A program made the position numbers and the translations under genes. A stretch of 54,249 nt of DNA from Saprospiraceae bacterium (lineage in GTDB: Bacteria; Bacteroidota; Bacteroidia; Chitinophagales; Saprospiraceae). Positions 18,727-25,297 of the stretch are shown here, piece after piece; within the stretch, counting starts at the first letter, position 1; each line of letters starts with the position of its first letter. A model generated the notes under the pieces. It saw only the letters and a list, made by a program, of their open reading frames with translations. It did no database searches and was not told the DNA's origin. The DNA is taken from contig JAIXOO010000429.1 of the NCBI GenBank assembly GCA_027486765.1, forward strand, positions 1-54,249, in the 5' to 3' direction.

Positions 18727-19599
18727 TTAATGTGCTGGGAAAACTTCCTGGGCCTTAGCCAGGGCACGTAGTAAAATTTCTAGATTGATGCCAGTAGGCT
18801 CAGCGACCTCATGAAAATAGGCGATCATGTTTTCAGTGGGCATGTTTCCGGTTAAATCGTCTTTGGCCATTGGGCAGCCACCGTAACCCTTGATGGCACC
18901 ATCATAGCGGCGGCAACCACTTTGATACGCAGCTTCAATTTTTTCGTGCCAAAGTTGAGGGACGGTATGAAAATGGGCACCAAACTCCAGCTCGGGATAA
19001 GCGACAATCAACTCCGAAAAAATGTAACGAATACTTTGAGGAGTAGCTACGCCAATGGTATCGGAAAGCTGAAAGATGTTGATGTCCAGCGCTTGCAATT
19101 GATCCACCCAGGTTTTAACAATTTCGGCATTCCAGGGATCGCCGTAGGGATTGCCAAAGCCCATCGAAATATAGAGCACCAATTGTTTGTTGAAACGCGT
19201 ACAAATGTCTTGAATCTGTTTGACTCGCTCCAGCGACTCCTGAATGGTGGCGTTGGTATTGCGCAATTGGAATGTCTCGGAAATGGAAAAAGGATAGCCT
19301 AAATAATCAATCTCCGTAAAAGCAGCGGCGTCTTCGGCCCCACGGCTGTTGGCTACAATGGCGAGCAATTTGGTTGGATTGCCAGTCAAGTCTAATTTGC
19401 TCAGCACTTCAGCTGTGTCGCGCATTTGGGGAATGGCTTTGGGCGATACAAAACTGCCAAAATCAAGGGTGTCGAAACCCGCCTTGAGCAAGAGGTTGAT
19501 GTAGTTTGCTTTAACCTCCGTTGGGATAAAATCTTTTAAACCCTGCATGGCGTCGCGGGGGCACTCGATGATTTTTAATGGCTTGTTTGGTAGACTCAT
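18727..19599 (-). CDS. Hydroxymethylglutaryl-CoA lyase
   Basis: The 290-residue protein has the HMGL-like TIM-barrel pattern: ECPRDAMQGLKDFIPTEVK at the N-terminus (family PRDG.Q), GFDTLDFGSFVSP, a metal-binding HxH in FGAHFHTVP (about residue 215) and the signature GYGGCPMAKDDLTGNMPTENM (about 240-260) with the catalytic Cys. It cleaves HMG-CoA to acetoacetate and acetyl-CoA in leucine degradation. Related aldolase-like lyases share the fold, but the GGCPMA..GN motif favours HMGL. No other leucine-catabolism gene lies nearby. The OmpA-SprB gene follows on the same strand. Confidence 0.88.
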   Translation of the reverse strand: MSLPNKPLKIIECPRDAMQGLKDFIPTEVKANYINLLLKAGFDTLDFGSFVSPKAIPQMRDTAEVLSKLDLTGNPTKLLAIVANSRGAEDAAAFTEIDYLGYPFSISETFQLRNTNATIQESLERVKQIQDICTRFNKQLVLYISMGFGNPYGDPWNAEIVKTWVDQLQALDINIFQLSDTIGVATPQSIRYIFSELIVAYPELEFGAHFHTVPQLWHEKIEAAYQSGCRRYDGAIKGYGGCPMAKDDLTGNMPTENMIAYFHEVAEPTGINLEILLRALAKAQEVFPAH

Positions 19600-19719
19600 G
19601 TGGCAGTGTTAGCGCGATAAAAATAGTGATTTCTGTGAAATACCAGCAAAGCCCTTAATTTTGCTCAACCACAACACCAGATGATTGTTAGGGTGGTATA
19701 ACGGAAAATACTTTGCATT

Positions 19720-19935
19720 ATGAAAAAGAACGCCGAATGGCTCAGCTTGGTTGGCTTTATCTTGGTAACTTTAGGAATTGGTGCGCTGGCGCTCAGTTTT
19801 GTGGGCCTGCGCTTTTCATTCCTGACTTGGTTGGACGCACCAGGGCATTTCTTTGGCTTTATCGCGCGAACATTAATGGTCGCGGTAGGCTTTTTGCTGG
19901 TTTACATTGCCAAAAGTGACTTTAAAGGAGAATAA
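19720..19935 (+). CDS. Small two-helix membrane protein
   Basis: The 71-residue protein starts with MKKNAEWLSLVG. It has two strongly hydrophobic segments, about residues 8-29 (LSLVGFILVTLGIGALALSF) and 47-63 (RTLMVAVGFLLVYIAKS). The C-terminus is charged. No family is recognised. A TACTTTGC sequence just upstream (19708-19715) resembles the -7 box of Bacteroidota promoters. A perfect 11-bp inverted repeat follows at 19973-20005. Confidence 0.65.
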   Translation: MKKNAEWLSLVGFILVTLGIGALALSFVGLRFSFLTWLDAPGHFFGFIARTLMVAVGFLLVYIAKSDFKGE

Positions 19936-19972
19936 ATGTAGCAGATCGGAATCGACGAGTAGAGAGCATGTA

Positions 19973-20005
19973 GGCGTCAGATCAATTTGATGAAGATCTG
20001 ACGCC
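19973..20005. repeat. Perfect inverted repeat downstream of the small membrane protein
   Basis: GGCGTCAGATC and GATCTGACGCC form an 11-bp stem with an 11-base loop. There is no T run after it, so it is either a processing or Rho-independent-like 3' hairpin or a small palindromic repeat. Confidence 0.65.
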
Positions 20006-20511
20006 AATTATACCCAATTTGAGGGGGACCTTTGTGATCATTTCCTGAGTAGTTTAGGGAAAAAAATGCTTAGTGTAAAATTAACTTGGAAAAAGTAGTT
20101 CACTCAGGGCCGAAAAAGTAGTACAGTGTTCTAAAACTTAGGAACAAGGGATTATATGAATACAAAAAAAAAGCGTTTTTTACATTTGCATGTAATGAAC
20201 AAAAGTAAAAAAACCCCTCCCTCAAAACTAAAATTAGCGTGCTAAAAGATGAGGGAGGAGGAGTTAATAAAAAAAAGAGGGAACTTCACGAAAATTTGTG
20301 CTAGTCGCACTACAGTGTTCAATTGTTTCTTCCGTGATGGTGATTCAAGTAAATAAGCGTTGCACTTTGGTTTTGGGAATAGGCGTTTGTAGGAAAGTTG
20401 AAGGAAAGAATGCCTTTCACAAGTCTACGATGCAAATATGAAGGCTTTTTTTTTTTTTGCCGCGATTGAAATTGTGAATAGAGTTAACTAAATTTGTGGA
20501 CACTTTTTTTT
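20006..20511. other. AT-rich region upstream of the IS481-like gene
   Basis: I see no coding sequence in about 500 bp. Features are a stem from CCCCTCCCTC (about 20214-20224) and GAGGGAGGAGG (about 20250-20261), two copies of ACAGTGTTC (about 20133 and 20312), a run of about ten T at 20446-20458, and TTGTGGACACTTTTTTT directly before the ATG of the next gene. The last resembles the end sequence of some IS3/IS481-like elements, but no matching second end is visible. Confidence 0.55.
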
Positions 20512-21498
20512 ATGCCAAAAAGTAAAAAAGGAATAAATCATCTGGAGATCATTAGGGCGAGTAAAAATGTGCGCGCCGCTTGTCAGGCTCTGGGCATTAG
20601 CCGCAGCCAGTATTATAAATTGCTCAAAAATCCAGAACCAGCTGCGCCCAAACCTTACGAGCCACTAAAAATGGGGGATGAAGCTGTAGCCAAAATCTTG
20701 GATTTGGCGCTATCGTATCCTTTCGGATGCCATGGAATCAGCGACAAACTGATGGGAGAAGGGGTGAGGGTCTCATCGGTAAGTGTACAAAAAATACTCA
20801 AGCTCCACGAATTAGGATCGGCAACAGCACGGTTCAAAGCTTTGGAAAAAAAAATACTTGAAACTCCTGAATATTTCCTCAATCCGGAACAAAAAGAATT
20901 TGTGGGCAAACACAACCCGCCACTTTTGGAGTTGTACCGCAACATCCAGTCACCAGGGGATTTAATCACGGTCTTTTCTAGTTTTTTAGGCCAATGGCCC
21001 TGGTTGGGTAAAGTGTACCTCTACTTTGGAATGGATGCCTATTCGGGCTATGTACAGGCTATGGTGACCTATACCGCAGATAAATACCTATGTGCTGAAT
21101 TTTTGAAAGAAACCATTTTCCCTTTTTATGAAGACAACGGGATTGTCATCAGGCAGGTAGAAACAAGTGATGACCCTGAATTTTTTAGTTACGGTAGCCA
21201 TCCATTTAGTTCTTTTTTGCGCAATTTAAGTGATGTGAAATACCTGCGTACAACAGTGGGAGGTATTAAAACAAACGGCTTTAGCCAAAAATGGGGTCAA
21301 TACCTGCAGCAATACATTGTGCCCGAATTGAAAAGGAAAAAAGCGGATTATCAGGATTTGGAGCAGTTGAACGAGGATGTTCAGCGCCTGATCAGCCAAT
21401 ACAACCAGGAGTTCAACCCTGACACAAGAACTTTTTTTTGGGGTCACCCTTTTGACCAAAAAATTCCAATTCAGCGTTTAACTTCTAACTCAGTTTAG
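20512..21498 (+). CDS. IS481-like transposase homologue without the DDE catalytic residues (probably domesticated)
   Basis: The 328-residue protein is colinear with IS481-family transposases. An N-terminal helix-turn-helix (about 8-40, AACQALGISRSQYYKLLK) is followed by a second HTH (CHGISDKL..EGVRVSSVSVQKILKLHEL), a linker and an rve-like RNase H domain (about 145-310, LGKVYLYFGMDAYSGYV). Against the remembered family pattern PGELWQQDTFYVG / TDNGREF / TNGFVERF, this protein has PGDLITVFSSFLG, TSDDPEF and TNGFSQKW. The three catalytic positions therefore become F155, S219 (or a shifted D220/D221) and Q259. The frame is intact. The start is the ATG at 20512; TTG at 20494 is less likely. The gene converges with the response regulator, overlapping by 4 bp. 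No terminal repeats or target duplication are evident. Confidence 0.8.
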   Translation: MPKSKKGINHLEIIRASKNVRAACQALGISRSQYYKLLKNPEPAAPKPYEPLKMGDEAVAKILDLALSYPFGCHGISDKLMGEGVRVSSVSVQKILKLHELGSATARFKALEKKILETPEYFLNPEQKEFVGKHNPPLLELYRNIQSPGDLITVFSSFLGQWPWLGKVYLYFGMDAYSGYVQAMVTYTADKYLCAEFLKETIFPFYEDNGIVIRQVETSDDPEFFSYGSHPFSSFLRNLSDVKYLRTTVGGIKTNGFSQKWGQYLQQYIVPELKRKKADYQDLEQLNEDVQRLISQYNQEFNPDTRTFFWGHPFDQKIPIQRLTSNSV

Positions 21499-22181
21499 TT
21501 GAAACCAAAAAAACGAACCTTCCATGTTTGGTACTTGCGAATCATTTCTTTGCGGTTATTGACATGCAGCATTTTATAAATTGTGCGGATTTCACGAGTA
21601 ATGTCTTTGATGTCGCGTCGCATATTTTCAGCCAGTTCTTCATAGGAGTAGGGCGTCTCATTGACTTCCCCTTCAAGCATGGTATCCAGGATTTTGGATT
21701 GTATTGGACTGAGTTTGACTTTATTTGAATCAGATTCCTGACTTCGAAAAACATCTAAAATACGGCGCATCAGGGCTCCACTGAAAGGCCGGCCATTTTC
21801 CAGTGCTAAATCATGTAAGTGGCGCATGAACACAGCATCAGGGTCAGTTTTTAGCAGGTAACTATCGGCACCTGCACAGAGAGCTTCGAACAAATACAGG
21901 TCATCCACATACACGGTCGCGATCATAAAAAGCAAATCGGGACGCTTGTGTTTGATTTGTTGCATGCTGGCAATGCCGTTGATGTGACCTTTGGGCATCC
22001 CAATGTCCTGAATGACTACTTTGATACGTGGATCGGAGATAAGCGTGTTGGTAGAATCCTCGCAACAGGAAAATTGATGTTCGGGCAAACACACAAAGGA
22101 CTCAGTAGTATTGATCAAACGGCTGTACCTCACGCGAAAATCATCCAGATCTTCCACGATGGCTACGTGAATTTTTTCCAT
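21495..22181 (-). CDS. Response regulator with LuxR-like output domain
   Basis: This 228-residue NarL-type regulator has a receiver domain (about 4-130) with acidic pocket E10/D11, phospho-acceptor D59 (VVIQDIGMP), a Thr in MIATVYVDD and a conserved Lys in YLLKTD. The C-terminus (about 165-228) is a winged or LuxR-like HTH with LSPIQSKILDTML and LHVNNRKEMIRKY, somewhat divergent from standard GerE. The start MEKIHVAIVEDLDDF at 22181 is chosen; the longer frame reaching 22304 runs into the kinase gene. It follows the kinase by 38 bp, so the pair is an operon and presumably cognate. Confidence 0.9.
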   Translation of the reverse strand: MEKIHVAIVEDLDDFRVRYSRLINTTESFVCLPEHQFSCCEDSTNTLISDPRIKVVIQDIGMPKGHINGIASMQQIKHKRPDLLFMIATVYVDDLYLFEALCAGADSYLLKTDPDAVFMRHLHDLALENGRPFSGALMRRILDVFRSQESDSNKVKLSPIQSKILDTMLEGEVNETPYSYEELAENMRRDIKDITREIRTIYKMLHVNNRKEMIRKYQTWKVRFFGFN

Positions 22182-22219
22182 GTCTTCAACTTTCCAAGTT
22201 CCCAAACGCTTACAATATT

Positions 22220-25200
22220 TTACAACAGCAACAACCGTGTAAAGTTGAAGAAAATTTTGCGCTTTGGTTTTATTTTTTGCAAGAAAATTGAAATAATCAC
22301 GCAAGTCCCTTGGTTATTGACCCATTTGATTTCACCTCCAATGCTATTCATCCGGCTCAACATATTGCCCAATCCATTGCCCGATTCTTGGATGCTTACA
22401 GTAGGTCTGATTTGCGCAATTTGTGCTTCAGACATACCTTTGCCATCATCTTGAACAACAATGTTCAATTTCCCCCCATCAACCCCAATGTGGATTAAAA
22501 CGCTGCTTGCCTGAGCGTGTTTGAGGATATTTCCCAGGGCCTCTTGTACCACCAAGCGCAGCTGATTTTTGTATTTCCCTGCTACCCAAGCATAAGGAAT
22601 GCTGGAATCGAGTTTGGCGGAAAACCCTAGATTTGTTCCAATGTTTCTTTTGCTTTCGGCGATGAGCTGGTGCAAAAATTCTATGAGGGTACTGTCTGCT
22701 TCGGTACTGTTGCGTACGGCGGCAGAGATCCGTTTGAACAATTGCAAGGCTTGTTCGGAAATGCTCAAAGCCTTTGCTTTGGCTTCAGGATGAGGAATTT
22801 CCCGTTCGGCAAAAGTTTGAAAATCCTGGAAAAAAACGACTTTTCCACTGGTGAGGTCGTGGATATCGCGCAGGATTCGTTCCTGTTCTTCGTTGCGGAT
22901 GCGGGCATCGCGCAGTTGGGCCCGCAAATACCATTGTACCAGGCCAAACAGCATAAACAAGACTACAATAGAGGCTGGTACAATAAACCACCAACGCATC
23001 CAAAAGGGCGGAGTGATTTCTAACGTAAATTTTTGTTCCCAAGGACTCCAATCACCGTGCGCATTTGCGGCCCTGGCCATCAAACGATATTTGCCTGGAG
23101 CCAGCTTGCCATACCGTATTTCGCTAAACTGATTGCGGGTGGCAGTTTCTATCACTTTTTCCTGGCCTTCCAGGTAATACTGGATTTTTACATTTGTAGG
23201 CATACTAAATTCAATCGCCACTAAGCGCAAGGCTATAGAGTTTTGATTGTATCTCAATTTAAAATAATTTTTTTCTAGAATTGATGTATCGGTCGGAAAC
23301 AAAGCATGATAGGGGCGCCCTTGCACCATCAATCGGGTCAGGCTGATTTTGGGTAGCGGCAGATTTTTTTCTAAATCTTCGGTATTAAATTGGGTCAGTC
23401 CAAAACGACCACCAATGATGTAGTTGTTTTTGTTCAAGGGGCGCAGGGTTCCAAATTGGAACGGCGCGGAGAAAAATCCCTCTTTTTGAGAAAAAATCCG
23501 CAAGGGTTTGCCGGAGGAATTGAAACTCAACAATTGGGTATTGGCACTGATCCAGATGATTCCCCGCTTATCTTGAGCGATACCCGTCAGCGAGCTGGAG
23601 GGCCAATCTGCGGGGGGGATAAAATTTTCGATGGTCAATTGTTTGCGGTCAATGAGTGTAATTCCAATGTCGCTCACCATCCAAACTTTGTTGCTGCCAC
23701 GTGGAATAATTTGTCCACCAACTCTACCATTCAAAGAGAAAGACTTTTCTTTTTTCCGGTTTTTATAAATGTGAAAAGTGCTAGCGTTTTCATGCAAATA
23801 CATCCGTTGATGAATACTGTCTTCCCAAATGTTGTACACACCCAAAAGTGAATCGAGCTGGTCGCCTAAGGGCTCTTTTTGTTTTTTTGTAAGGTTCAAT
23901 CGTTTGGTATCGGATAAGCCTGACACCCAGTAAGTATTGTTCATGCTTCGATAAAGCCCTAAGGTGGGTTCATTCGTATTCAGATATAAAGTTAGTTTTT
24001 TTGACTGAGGATGGTAATGGTAAATCTTTTGATCGGTGAGCACCCAGATCAACTTCAAATGCTTGTCGGTGTATAACCCTGTAACGTATTCATCTAGAGG
24101 GAAATGTTGTTGAATTTTTTGGCCGTCAAATAAATAAAGTCCTCCTTGGCCAGCAATTAGCATTTCTTGGGCATTGATCACCTCCAGGTATTCTATGCCG
24201 AAATCCATAGGAATAAACTGGGCCTTAATCAATTCTGGGTTTGTAAAACACAAGCCTTCATCATAAACCAAGCCCCAAAGTATCCCGTCACGATCCAAAA
24301 CCAACTCGCTGAACTTTTGATGAGAGATGATATTTGAATTGAGCCTGCCAGACCAATCGTTGACTTTAGTGTGTTTACCCGTTGTCAAATCGAAGTAATA
24401 CAGGGCTTCATAGGTACTGCACAACAACAAATGTGGTTTGATGAAAATGGCATAGGTGAAATGAGGGGCAGTGGGTAAGGTGAATAAATCCTGGAGTTGT
24501 TTTTTGACGGTATCAAATACTTTTAATCCTACGGAGGTACACAAGATGTACTTGTTTTTTTGACCCGGATAAGGGAGTACCTGTCGAATATCGTATGCTG
24601 CCTGATCGGTTTCGGTATTGGAAAAATACAAACGACTTGAGAAGGTTTTTTTTTCACCTAAGGTCCAAATTTTCAAGCCAGGACTATAAAAACGATATTC
24701 AAAAAAACCATTGACTTTCTTTTGAGCATCCAAAATCGGGGAAAATCTTTTTCCACTAATGTGATCATTCCCTGTGGAGTAGGGTTGAAAAATCAATTGG
24801 TTTTTTTGGATGGTTTTTTGTAGATCAACGGAATAAAGTCCATTTCCCGCAGTTAACCAAAGCTGATCTTGAGCATCCAGATGGATGAGGCTATAATCAC
24901 TCAAGGTTTCTTCACCATTGACCAATTTGAATCCTCCGAAATTCAGACAAGTATCCCGAAGCCGATCATAACAGTATAATTTTTTTAAGGAGCAAAACCA
25001 CAAGTTTCCTTTTTGATCTTCCACCATTGAGCTTTGCAAATAAGGATCATTGATGCCTTTTTCCAGCCCGTATTTAACGACTTCTGCACCATCGTAGCGG
25101 TAAAGGCCACCTAGTGTTCCTATCCAATTAAAATGACGAGAATCTTTAAAAACGAATACGACTTTGGTATTTTCCAAGCCATTTTGGCTGGTCAATTCGT

Positions 25201-25297
25201 GAAAGAATAAATCATTTTGGCCAAATAAAGGTGAGCACAGCCAAGAGAAAAATAAGCTGAAGAAGAAGAATGAAGAAAATTTGAGCAGTTGAATCAC
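22220..25297 (-). CDS. Propeller-type sensor histidine kinase
   Basis: The 1025-residue membrane kinase opens with a signal sequence (to about 26, LFGQN). A large periplasmic sensor of two-component-regulator propeller repeats follows (about 30-660: WIGTLGGLYRYDG, NLWFCSLKKLYCYD, ILWGLVYDEGLC), then a Y_Y_Y domain (about 690-755). One membrane helix (about 765-787) leads to a HisKA_3-like dimerisation segment with phospho-acceptor His in RILRDIHDLTSG (about 815) and a HATPase domain with N-box QEALGNILKHA, G1 DDGKGM and G2 GNGLGNM. It lacks fused receiver and AraC domains, unlike the hybrid kinases common in Bacteroidota. Its partner is the downstream response regulator. The ligand is unknown. 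Confidence 0.92.
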   Translation of the reverse strand: MIQLLKFSSFFFFSLFFSWLCSPLFGQNDLFFHELTSQNGLENTKVVFVFKDSRHFNWIGTLGGLYRYDGAEVVKYGLEKGINDPYLQSSMVEDQKGNLWFCSLKKLYCYDRLRDTCLNFGGFKLVNGEETLSDYSLIHLDAQDQLWLTAGNGLYSVDLQKTIQKNQLIFQPYSTGNDHISGKRFSPILDAQKKVNGFFEYRFYSPGLKIWTLGEKKTFSSRLYFSNTETDQAAYDIRQVLPYPGQKNKYILCTSVGLKVFDTVKKQLQDLFTLPTAPHFTYAIFIKPHLLLCSTYEALYYFDLTTGKHTKVNDWSGRLNSNIISHQKFSELVLDRDGILWGLVYDEGLCFTNPELIKAQFIPMDFGIEYLEVINAQEMLIAGQGGLYLFDGQKIQQHFPLDEYVTGLYTDKHLKLIWVLTDQKIYHYHPQSKKLTLYLNTNEPTLGLYRSMNNTYWVSGLSDTKRLNLTKKQKEPLGDQLDSLLGVYNIWEDSIHQRMYLHENASTFHIYKNRKKEKSFSLNGRVGGQIIPRGSNKVWMVSDIGITLIDRKQLTIENFIPPADWPSSSLTGIAQDKRGIIWISANTQLLSFNSSGKPLRIFSQKEGFFSAPFQFGTLRPLNKNNYIIGGRFGLTQFNTEDLEKNLPLPKISLTRLMVQGRPYHALFPTDTSILEKNYFKLRYNQNSIALRLVAIEFSMPTNVKIQYYLEGQEKVIETATRNQFSEIRYGKLAPGKYRLMARAANAHGDWSPWEQKFTLEITPPFWMRWWFIVPASIVVLFMLFGLVQWYLRAQLRDARIRNEEQERILRDIHDLTSGKVVFFQDFQTFAEREIPHPEAKAKALSISEQALQLFKRISAAVRNSTEADSTLIEFLHQLIAESKRNIGTNLGFSAKLDSSIPYAWVAGKYKNQLRLVVQEALGNILKHAQASSVLIHIGVDGGKLNIVVQDDGKGMSEAQIAQIRPTVSIQESGNGLGNMLSRMNSIGGEIKWVNNQGTCVIISIFLQKIKPKRKIFFNFTRLLLL

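Follow-up and report, generated by a model that had tools for sequence, protein, structure and literature searches.

To our knowledge, the domesticated bacterial transposases that can be named are either HUH enzymes (TnpA-REP) or proteins derived from TnpB. TldR proteins are nuclease-dead. TnpA-REP/RAYT proteins are HUH enzymes of the IS200/IS605 kind that still process REP DNA. Like theirs, the gene described here derives from a transposase, sits in the chromosome in a single copy and has palindromic DNA close by, but they have the HUH nuclease fold, whereas Foldseek assigns the protein encoded here to the RNase H-like (DDE) fold, without the catalytic triad. With TldR (PMC13418256), a TnpB-derived transposon protein has turned into a transcription factor, an analogy for how the present protein might work; TldR, however, is RNA-guided, phage-encoded and of a different fold, and the conserved non-coding block found here only adjoins the gene. 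With the IS481 family (NF033577) the protein shares its domain order, its RNase H-like core and an end-to-end alignment, but it is set apart by the missing D, D and E, by a score under the family cut-off, by its single copy and by the absence of terminal repeats (TIRs) at the usual distance. The best fold matches, IstA of IS21 and retroviral integrases, differ in the same residues, since theirs carry D, D and E and cut DNA. Searching the open-licence PMC literature, we found no paper on such an IS481 case. New at this locus are a promoter-like site kept in 4/4 orthologues, a 175-nt conserved block with a terminator and a dyad holding ATCTGAC.

The window, meaning the whole stretch of 54,249 nucleotides that was analysed, carries the gene in a frame that is open over all of its 328 codons (Table 1), as the earlier note had read it, and the end-to-end likeness to the IS481 plan that the same note described is real but divergent. 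The NCBIfam model for IS481 transposases, NF033577, matches residues 14-300 at 65.6 bits (E 5e-18) and does not reach its curated cut-off of 224 bits; the protein aligns from end to end with its relatives, and the Pfam HTH matches are all sub-threshold (HTH_23 at 19.4 bits against a cut-off of 24.6). An AlphaFold2 model, built from 41 aligned sequences (the window protein, two orthologues and 38 relatives), has a mean pLDDT of 74.1 and a pTM of 0.51 and consists of N-terminal helices and an RNase H-like core, the active-site part being the less certain part of that core (pLDDT 56-68, blocks 221-260). In Foldseek the model is best matched by IstA of IS21 (E 3e-8) and by retroviral integrases, the integrase core alignments covering about 150 residues at a target TM of about 0.65-0.69. 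Model and Foldseek thus place an RNase H-like core after N-terminal HTH regions, as in IS481 members. Because of the NF033577 match together with the model and its Foldseek matches, the window protein is, as modelled, a divergent member of the integrase-like transposases.

Table 1. Positions of the transposase-like gene, its catalytic codons, its upstream elements and its neighbours in the window
Feature	Coordinates	Strand	Remarks
IS481-like transposase, predicted to be catalytically dead	20512..21498	+	open frame, 328 aa; NF033577 match, alignment, model, Foldseek
Regions of the protein			HTH region, residues about 10-45; second helical region, about 55-100; RNase H-like core, about 148-262
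F155 codon, first catalytic D position	20974..20976	+	alignments with relatives
S219 codon, second catalytic D position	21166..21168	+	alignments with relatives and MMTV integrase profile match
Q259 codon, catalytic E position	21286..21288	+	alignments with relatives and MMTV integrase profile match
Promoter-like site TTG-N20-TAAATTTG	20466..20496	+	46-48 bp before ATG, 4/4 orthologues
Conserved non-coding block, 175-nt	20207..20383	-	candidate RNA or 3' end of the response-regulator transcript
Intrinsic terminator	20207..20258	-	9-bp GC-rich stem CCTCCCTCA/TGAGGGAGG, 25-nt loop, GG and seven T; 4/4 orthologues
Dyad GGCGTCAGATC-N11-GATCTGACGCC	19973..20005	.	candidate operator; each arm contains ATCTGAC, the core of mobile relatives' TIRs
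71-aa small conserved membrane-type ORF	19720..19935	+	upstream, locus anchor; homologue in G018 (56%)
HMGL-like protein	18727..19599	-	locus anchor; homologue in G018 (77%)
Response regulator	21495..22181	-	receiver domain; C-terminal LuxR-like HTH by reading only; tail-to-tail with the transposase-like gene
Sensor kinase	22220..25297	-	Reg_prop, Y_Y_Y, HATPase_c

Mapping the gene across genomes, we found it in four of the five genomes of the genus, with one copy each, namely in its own genome (G000) and in G200, G199 and G125, whose orthologues are 93, 74 and about 58-59% identical to the window protein (G125 being the most distant); the fifth genome, G018, is without it. Consistent with the earlier statement that the window has no second copy, the other match in its own genome spans 53 residues at chance level (E 0.29), and no near-identical mobile copies exist there. 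Among 199 genomes of the family (E up to 0.001), four matched, these being its own genome, G125 and two D/D/E relatives. Searches of the order (396 genomes) and of the phylum (395 genomes), at thresholds of 1e-20 and 1e-25, gave nothing but D/D/E relatives besides its own genome and G125. Two contigs recovered by peptide pattern, L003 and L004, match contigs of G200 and G199 in length, were taken as those and were counted once. Plasmids and phages yielded no close relative, the 516 and 14 records that matched all lying below 60% identity and, among the matches listed, at 22-28%; viral contigs, searched by the peptide pattern P0001 alone, yielded none either. The window protein is 21-25% identical to its mobile relatives, and in a 30-row tree a very long branch, with a support of 100/100, sets its clade apart from the 26 remaining rows, all of which it lies outside. 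The mobility of an IS481 element, seen as several copies or differing insertion sites, is absent from this clade, which has one copy at the same locus in 4/4 species. Found in one genus only, the protein does not represent a broad regulator family; the earlier note had envisaged an undescribed one. The search of its own genome turned up no other IS481 transposase of this kind that is intact, and the IS481 profile matches at C500 and C81 are below cut-off. By reading, C500 carries an IS3-type OrfA/OrfB pair (L037 72-1273), the source of its IS481 profile matches.

The catalytic positions separate this clade from its relatives. F155 aligns with the first D (QDTYY), S219 with the second D (TDRG) and Q259 with the E (NGICER) of the relatives, and D, D and E are kept in 57/57 distant relatives aligned (19/19 from genomes and 38/38 from viral contigs), whereas F, S and Q stand at these positions in 4/4 orthologues. 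Among the 19 genome-derived relatives, one genome contributes three copies and another four, so that they amount to 14 different elements. Of the viral contigs, 88 encoded a relative, and 40 ranges were taken from 80 loci, from which one with a stop and one duplicate were removed to leave 38; because the search pattern accepted E or Q at the third place, E was not pre-selected among them. In the MMTV integrase profile match, the second D and E columns are those of the TDN and VER motifs, and the first D lies outside the matched part. The loss of all three DDE residues, which the earlier note had claimed and for which it had called for an alignment with active IS481 members, is therefore borne out by D, D and E columns that read F, S and Q in the orthologues. 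The shift of the second D to D220 or D221, which it had allowed for, is answered against by the same alignment, since D220 is K in the 58% orthologue (G125) and D221, invariant, aligns with the G of TDRG. Taken alone, the invariance of F, S and Q across the four orthologues would be weak evidence, being three shared positions at 58% identity.

The locus is constant too. In 4/4 species the gene order runs SprB/OmpA protein, HMGL-like protein, 71-aa ORF, transposase-like gene, response regulator and kinase (the contigs of G200 and G199 stop inside the kinase), so that orthologues with the same F/S/Q substitutions and the same gene neighbourhood, for which a search had been proposed, do exist. 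The stops of the transposase-like gene and the response regulator overlap by 4 bp in the window and in G199 and lie 3-4 bp apart in G200 and G125. Across the 199 family genomes the response regulator reaches 79% identity in G125, the next best match being 40%. In G018 the HMGL and 71-aa ORF homologues stand side by side, and on the 19.9 kb examined there is no dead transposase, response regulator or kinase; a transposase search of that genome at E up to 0.001 was empty, and for the response regulator it has nothing better than a match at E 1e-14. The 71-aa ORF, which has no Pfam match, thus adjoins the HMGL-like gene in G018 too. Because the four species form one clade, the joint occurrence of the gene and the two-component pair counts as one event and not as repeated association, and the pair may be a neighbour through history only. 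The 576 bp upstream of the gene are 36% GC compared with 47% for the window, in keeping with the AT-rich region described earlier, and both this region and the two-component pair, which had been put forward as targets, are conserved with the gene and remain natural candidates.

Within the upstream region, the site before the gene follows the pattern TTG-N20-TAnnTTTG, which we take to be the Bacteroidota promoter type and which recurs little in the whole window, where the plus strand holds 7 matches and the minus strand 1. Farther upstream lies the conserved non-coding block. Over 20200-20385 it is 95, 87 and 82% identical to G200, G199 and G125, compared with 93, 73 and 61% for the gene itself and, in G125, with 80% for HMGL and 77% for the 71-aa ORF; across the four species its conservation equals that of nearby housekeeping genes. 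A covariance model of the block matched 23/398 genomes at E up to 0.1, with scores above 200 bits only in the clade's four and at most 30.2 bits in the other 19; these weak matches, six of which were re-run and four inspected as alignments, were taken as probably due to chance, one of them (L082) lying across an opposite-strand ORF, and a wider RNA family was accordingly set aside as improbable. Nothing in Rfam matched 19500-22500 at E up to 1, and 6S or another known RNA was likewise rejected, as the four matches over 20140-20520 (three snoRNA families and one CRISPR repeat family) are at chance level (E 1.8-9.7). The folding of the block is unremarkable (minus strand z -1.48, plus strand z -0.52), and all 25 RNA pairs are present in 4/4 sequences, with no pair changed on both sides. 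The terminator at its end is the only one that the scan returned on either strand over about 2.2 kb per genome in all four; over 20150-21700 a standard scan limited to loops of at most 8 gave no terminator. As to a minus-strand promoter, the search gave one-mismatch -7-like sites only, and the block may be a separate small RNA or the end of the response-regulator transcript. Outside the locus, a genome-wide search with the upstream region gave only short matches.

The earlier note had seen no clear terminal repeats. This holds at the usual IS distance: there is no TIR in the 45-66 bp range before the start, nor any beyond the stop, where the response regulator adjoins. At 507-539 bp upstream of the gene, however, stands a dyad that has the TIR core. 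Mobile relatives end in repeats built on this core, ATCTGAC, which is matched upstream in 17/19, downstream in 16/19 and on both sides in 15/19 (10/14 different elements), and of its four occurrences in the 54-kb window two are the dyad arms. The dyad pattern occurs once each in G000, G199 and G200, only at this locus, and the reversed-pattern control gave 0 in all five genomes. Neither G125 nor G018 has a TIR-core dyad; at the same place, where the alignment is 17% identical, G125 has by reading a dyad of different sequence with AATCTGTC. Such a dyad arose in 0/3000 first-order resamplings of the 912-bp region, in a test devised after the dyad was seen. The dyad is possibly an inherited transposon end, although the clade's ancestral TIR is not established as ATCTGAC because the clade stands on a very long outside branch and the outlying relative L068 is without the core.

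A decaying IS copy, that is, an intact-looking pseudogene that lost its active site by chance, would fit the divergent score (65.6 compared with 224 bits), a variable C-terminal tail and IS ends absent from their usual places. However, the frame is open in 4/4 species, the locus is fixed and the promoter-like site is conserved, and the dN/dS check that had been suggested shows purifying selection, which largely refutes decay: NG86 gave 0.085-0.140 in the 4/6 pairs with values (window-G200 0.140, window-G199 0.085, G200-G199 0.100, and G200-G125 0.128 with a saturated dS of 2.9), and YN00 gave 0.230 and 0.108 in the 2/6 pairs with values. The response regulator and HMGL evolve slower still (NG86 0.026-0.060 where computed). 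We regard decay as extremely improbable. Catalysis could also have persisted or been re-invented through other conserved acids, since D175, D221 and E223 are invariant in the four orthologues and the modelled active site has a pLDDT of only 56-68, but D175 and E223 also occur in D/D/E relatives and are thus not replacements, D221 falls on their G, and in the alignment no acid near F155 is common to all four, which makes this reading very unlikely. Loss of catalysis and domestication of an IS481-like gene are, in contrast, strongly favoured on sequence grounds because the same substitutions recur at the same locus, selection is purifying and there are no near-identical mobile copies. The single-copy locus is fixed across species and under purifying selection, as a domesticated gene is. 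Of the proposed domestication into a non-cutting DNA-binding role, domestication and loss of the triad therefore stand, and the regulator role, which we infer, is favoured by conservation of the first HTH region.

That region is the best conserved part of the protein. Identity to G125 is 77% in the first HTH region, compared with 58% overall, and 55% in the second, 60% in the linker, 61% in the core, 55% in the next stretch and 14% in the last 28 residues. We lean, with some reserve, toward a DNA-binding regulator with its own locus and the two-component pair as targets. A recruit at the protein level, in which the RNase H-like core, or else the protein as a whole, would link the response regulator or some other partner as an adaptor, with the HTH regions only structural, would explain the conserved pairing with the response regulator and a core as conserved as the protein overall, but the best conserved part is the first HTH region, and we consider such an adaptor unlikely. 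We hold in similarly low regard a trans-acting silencer, in which the dead transposase would occupy the TIRs of mobile IS481 relatives and block their transposition, the dyad being an autoregulatory copy of the site. A silencer would agree with the TIR core within the upstream dyad and with the TIR-type pattern, which is matched perfectly at two other places in its own genome (the reversed-pattern control gave 0) and with one mismatch at one place in G125; one of these sites reads as a palindrome. However, its own genome has yielded no intact IS481 transposase of this kind to be silenced, G199, G200 and G018 are without a TIR-type match, and the mobile relatives are only 21-25% identical to the protein.

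Under the regulator reading, an IS481-type transposase would have become immobile and shed its D, D, E triad in the common ancestor of the four species, and been recruited as a fixed, expressed chromosomal gene. The protein would then bind DNA in a sequence-specific manner through its retained N-terminal HTH region, and the RNase H-like core may serve as a scaffold or dimerisation module. Most likely it would act locally, with the upstream dyad and the promoter region as its targets, and it may be linked in function to the response-regulator/kinase pair that converges on it. The two genes lie too close together for a terminator to fit between them, and the only one that the scan found on that strand lies upstream of the transposase promoter; the response-regulator transcript is therefore predicted, from the terminator scan, to run antisense through the whole transposase-like gene; we propose that the two genes would therefore check each other. 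The excludon or noncontiguous operon (PMC7154746) similarly has convergent genes with transcripts that overlap over a whole gene, which at this locus is a prediction. A bolder version, which we think rather doubtful, is a DDE transposase turned transcription factor with a palindromised transposon end as operator, whose regulatory unit would also take in a conserved non-coding RNA element together with the two-component pair overlapping it in antisense, a DDE counterpart of TldR/RAYT that is possibly RNA-associated. A DDE transposase without its entire triad, kept under purifying selection at one locus, offers a clean natural experiment in the passage from recombinase to host gene, and the four divergent orthologues, the gene-less genome of the genus, the small conserved regulatory region and the candidate operator make the role of the dead transposase directly testable.

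The two perfect TIR-type sites elsewhere in its own genome are further candidate targets by sequence. C374 of its own genome (L075 about 1490-1545) and C2 of G125 (L073) hold short palindromes in which two TIR-like tips stand face to face, TGAAGTAGTC..ATCTGA..GACTACTTCA, possible relics of mobile relatives. In C227 of its own genome (L074 about 1511), a single perfect TIR-type site lies outside any element on the stretch examined. At the locus itself, a direct repeat, TACAGTGTTC, at 20122-20131 and 20311-20320 flanks the conserved block, its second copy kept in 4/4 and its first present with changes.
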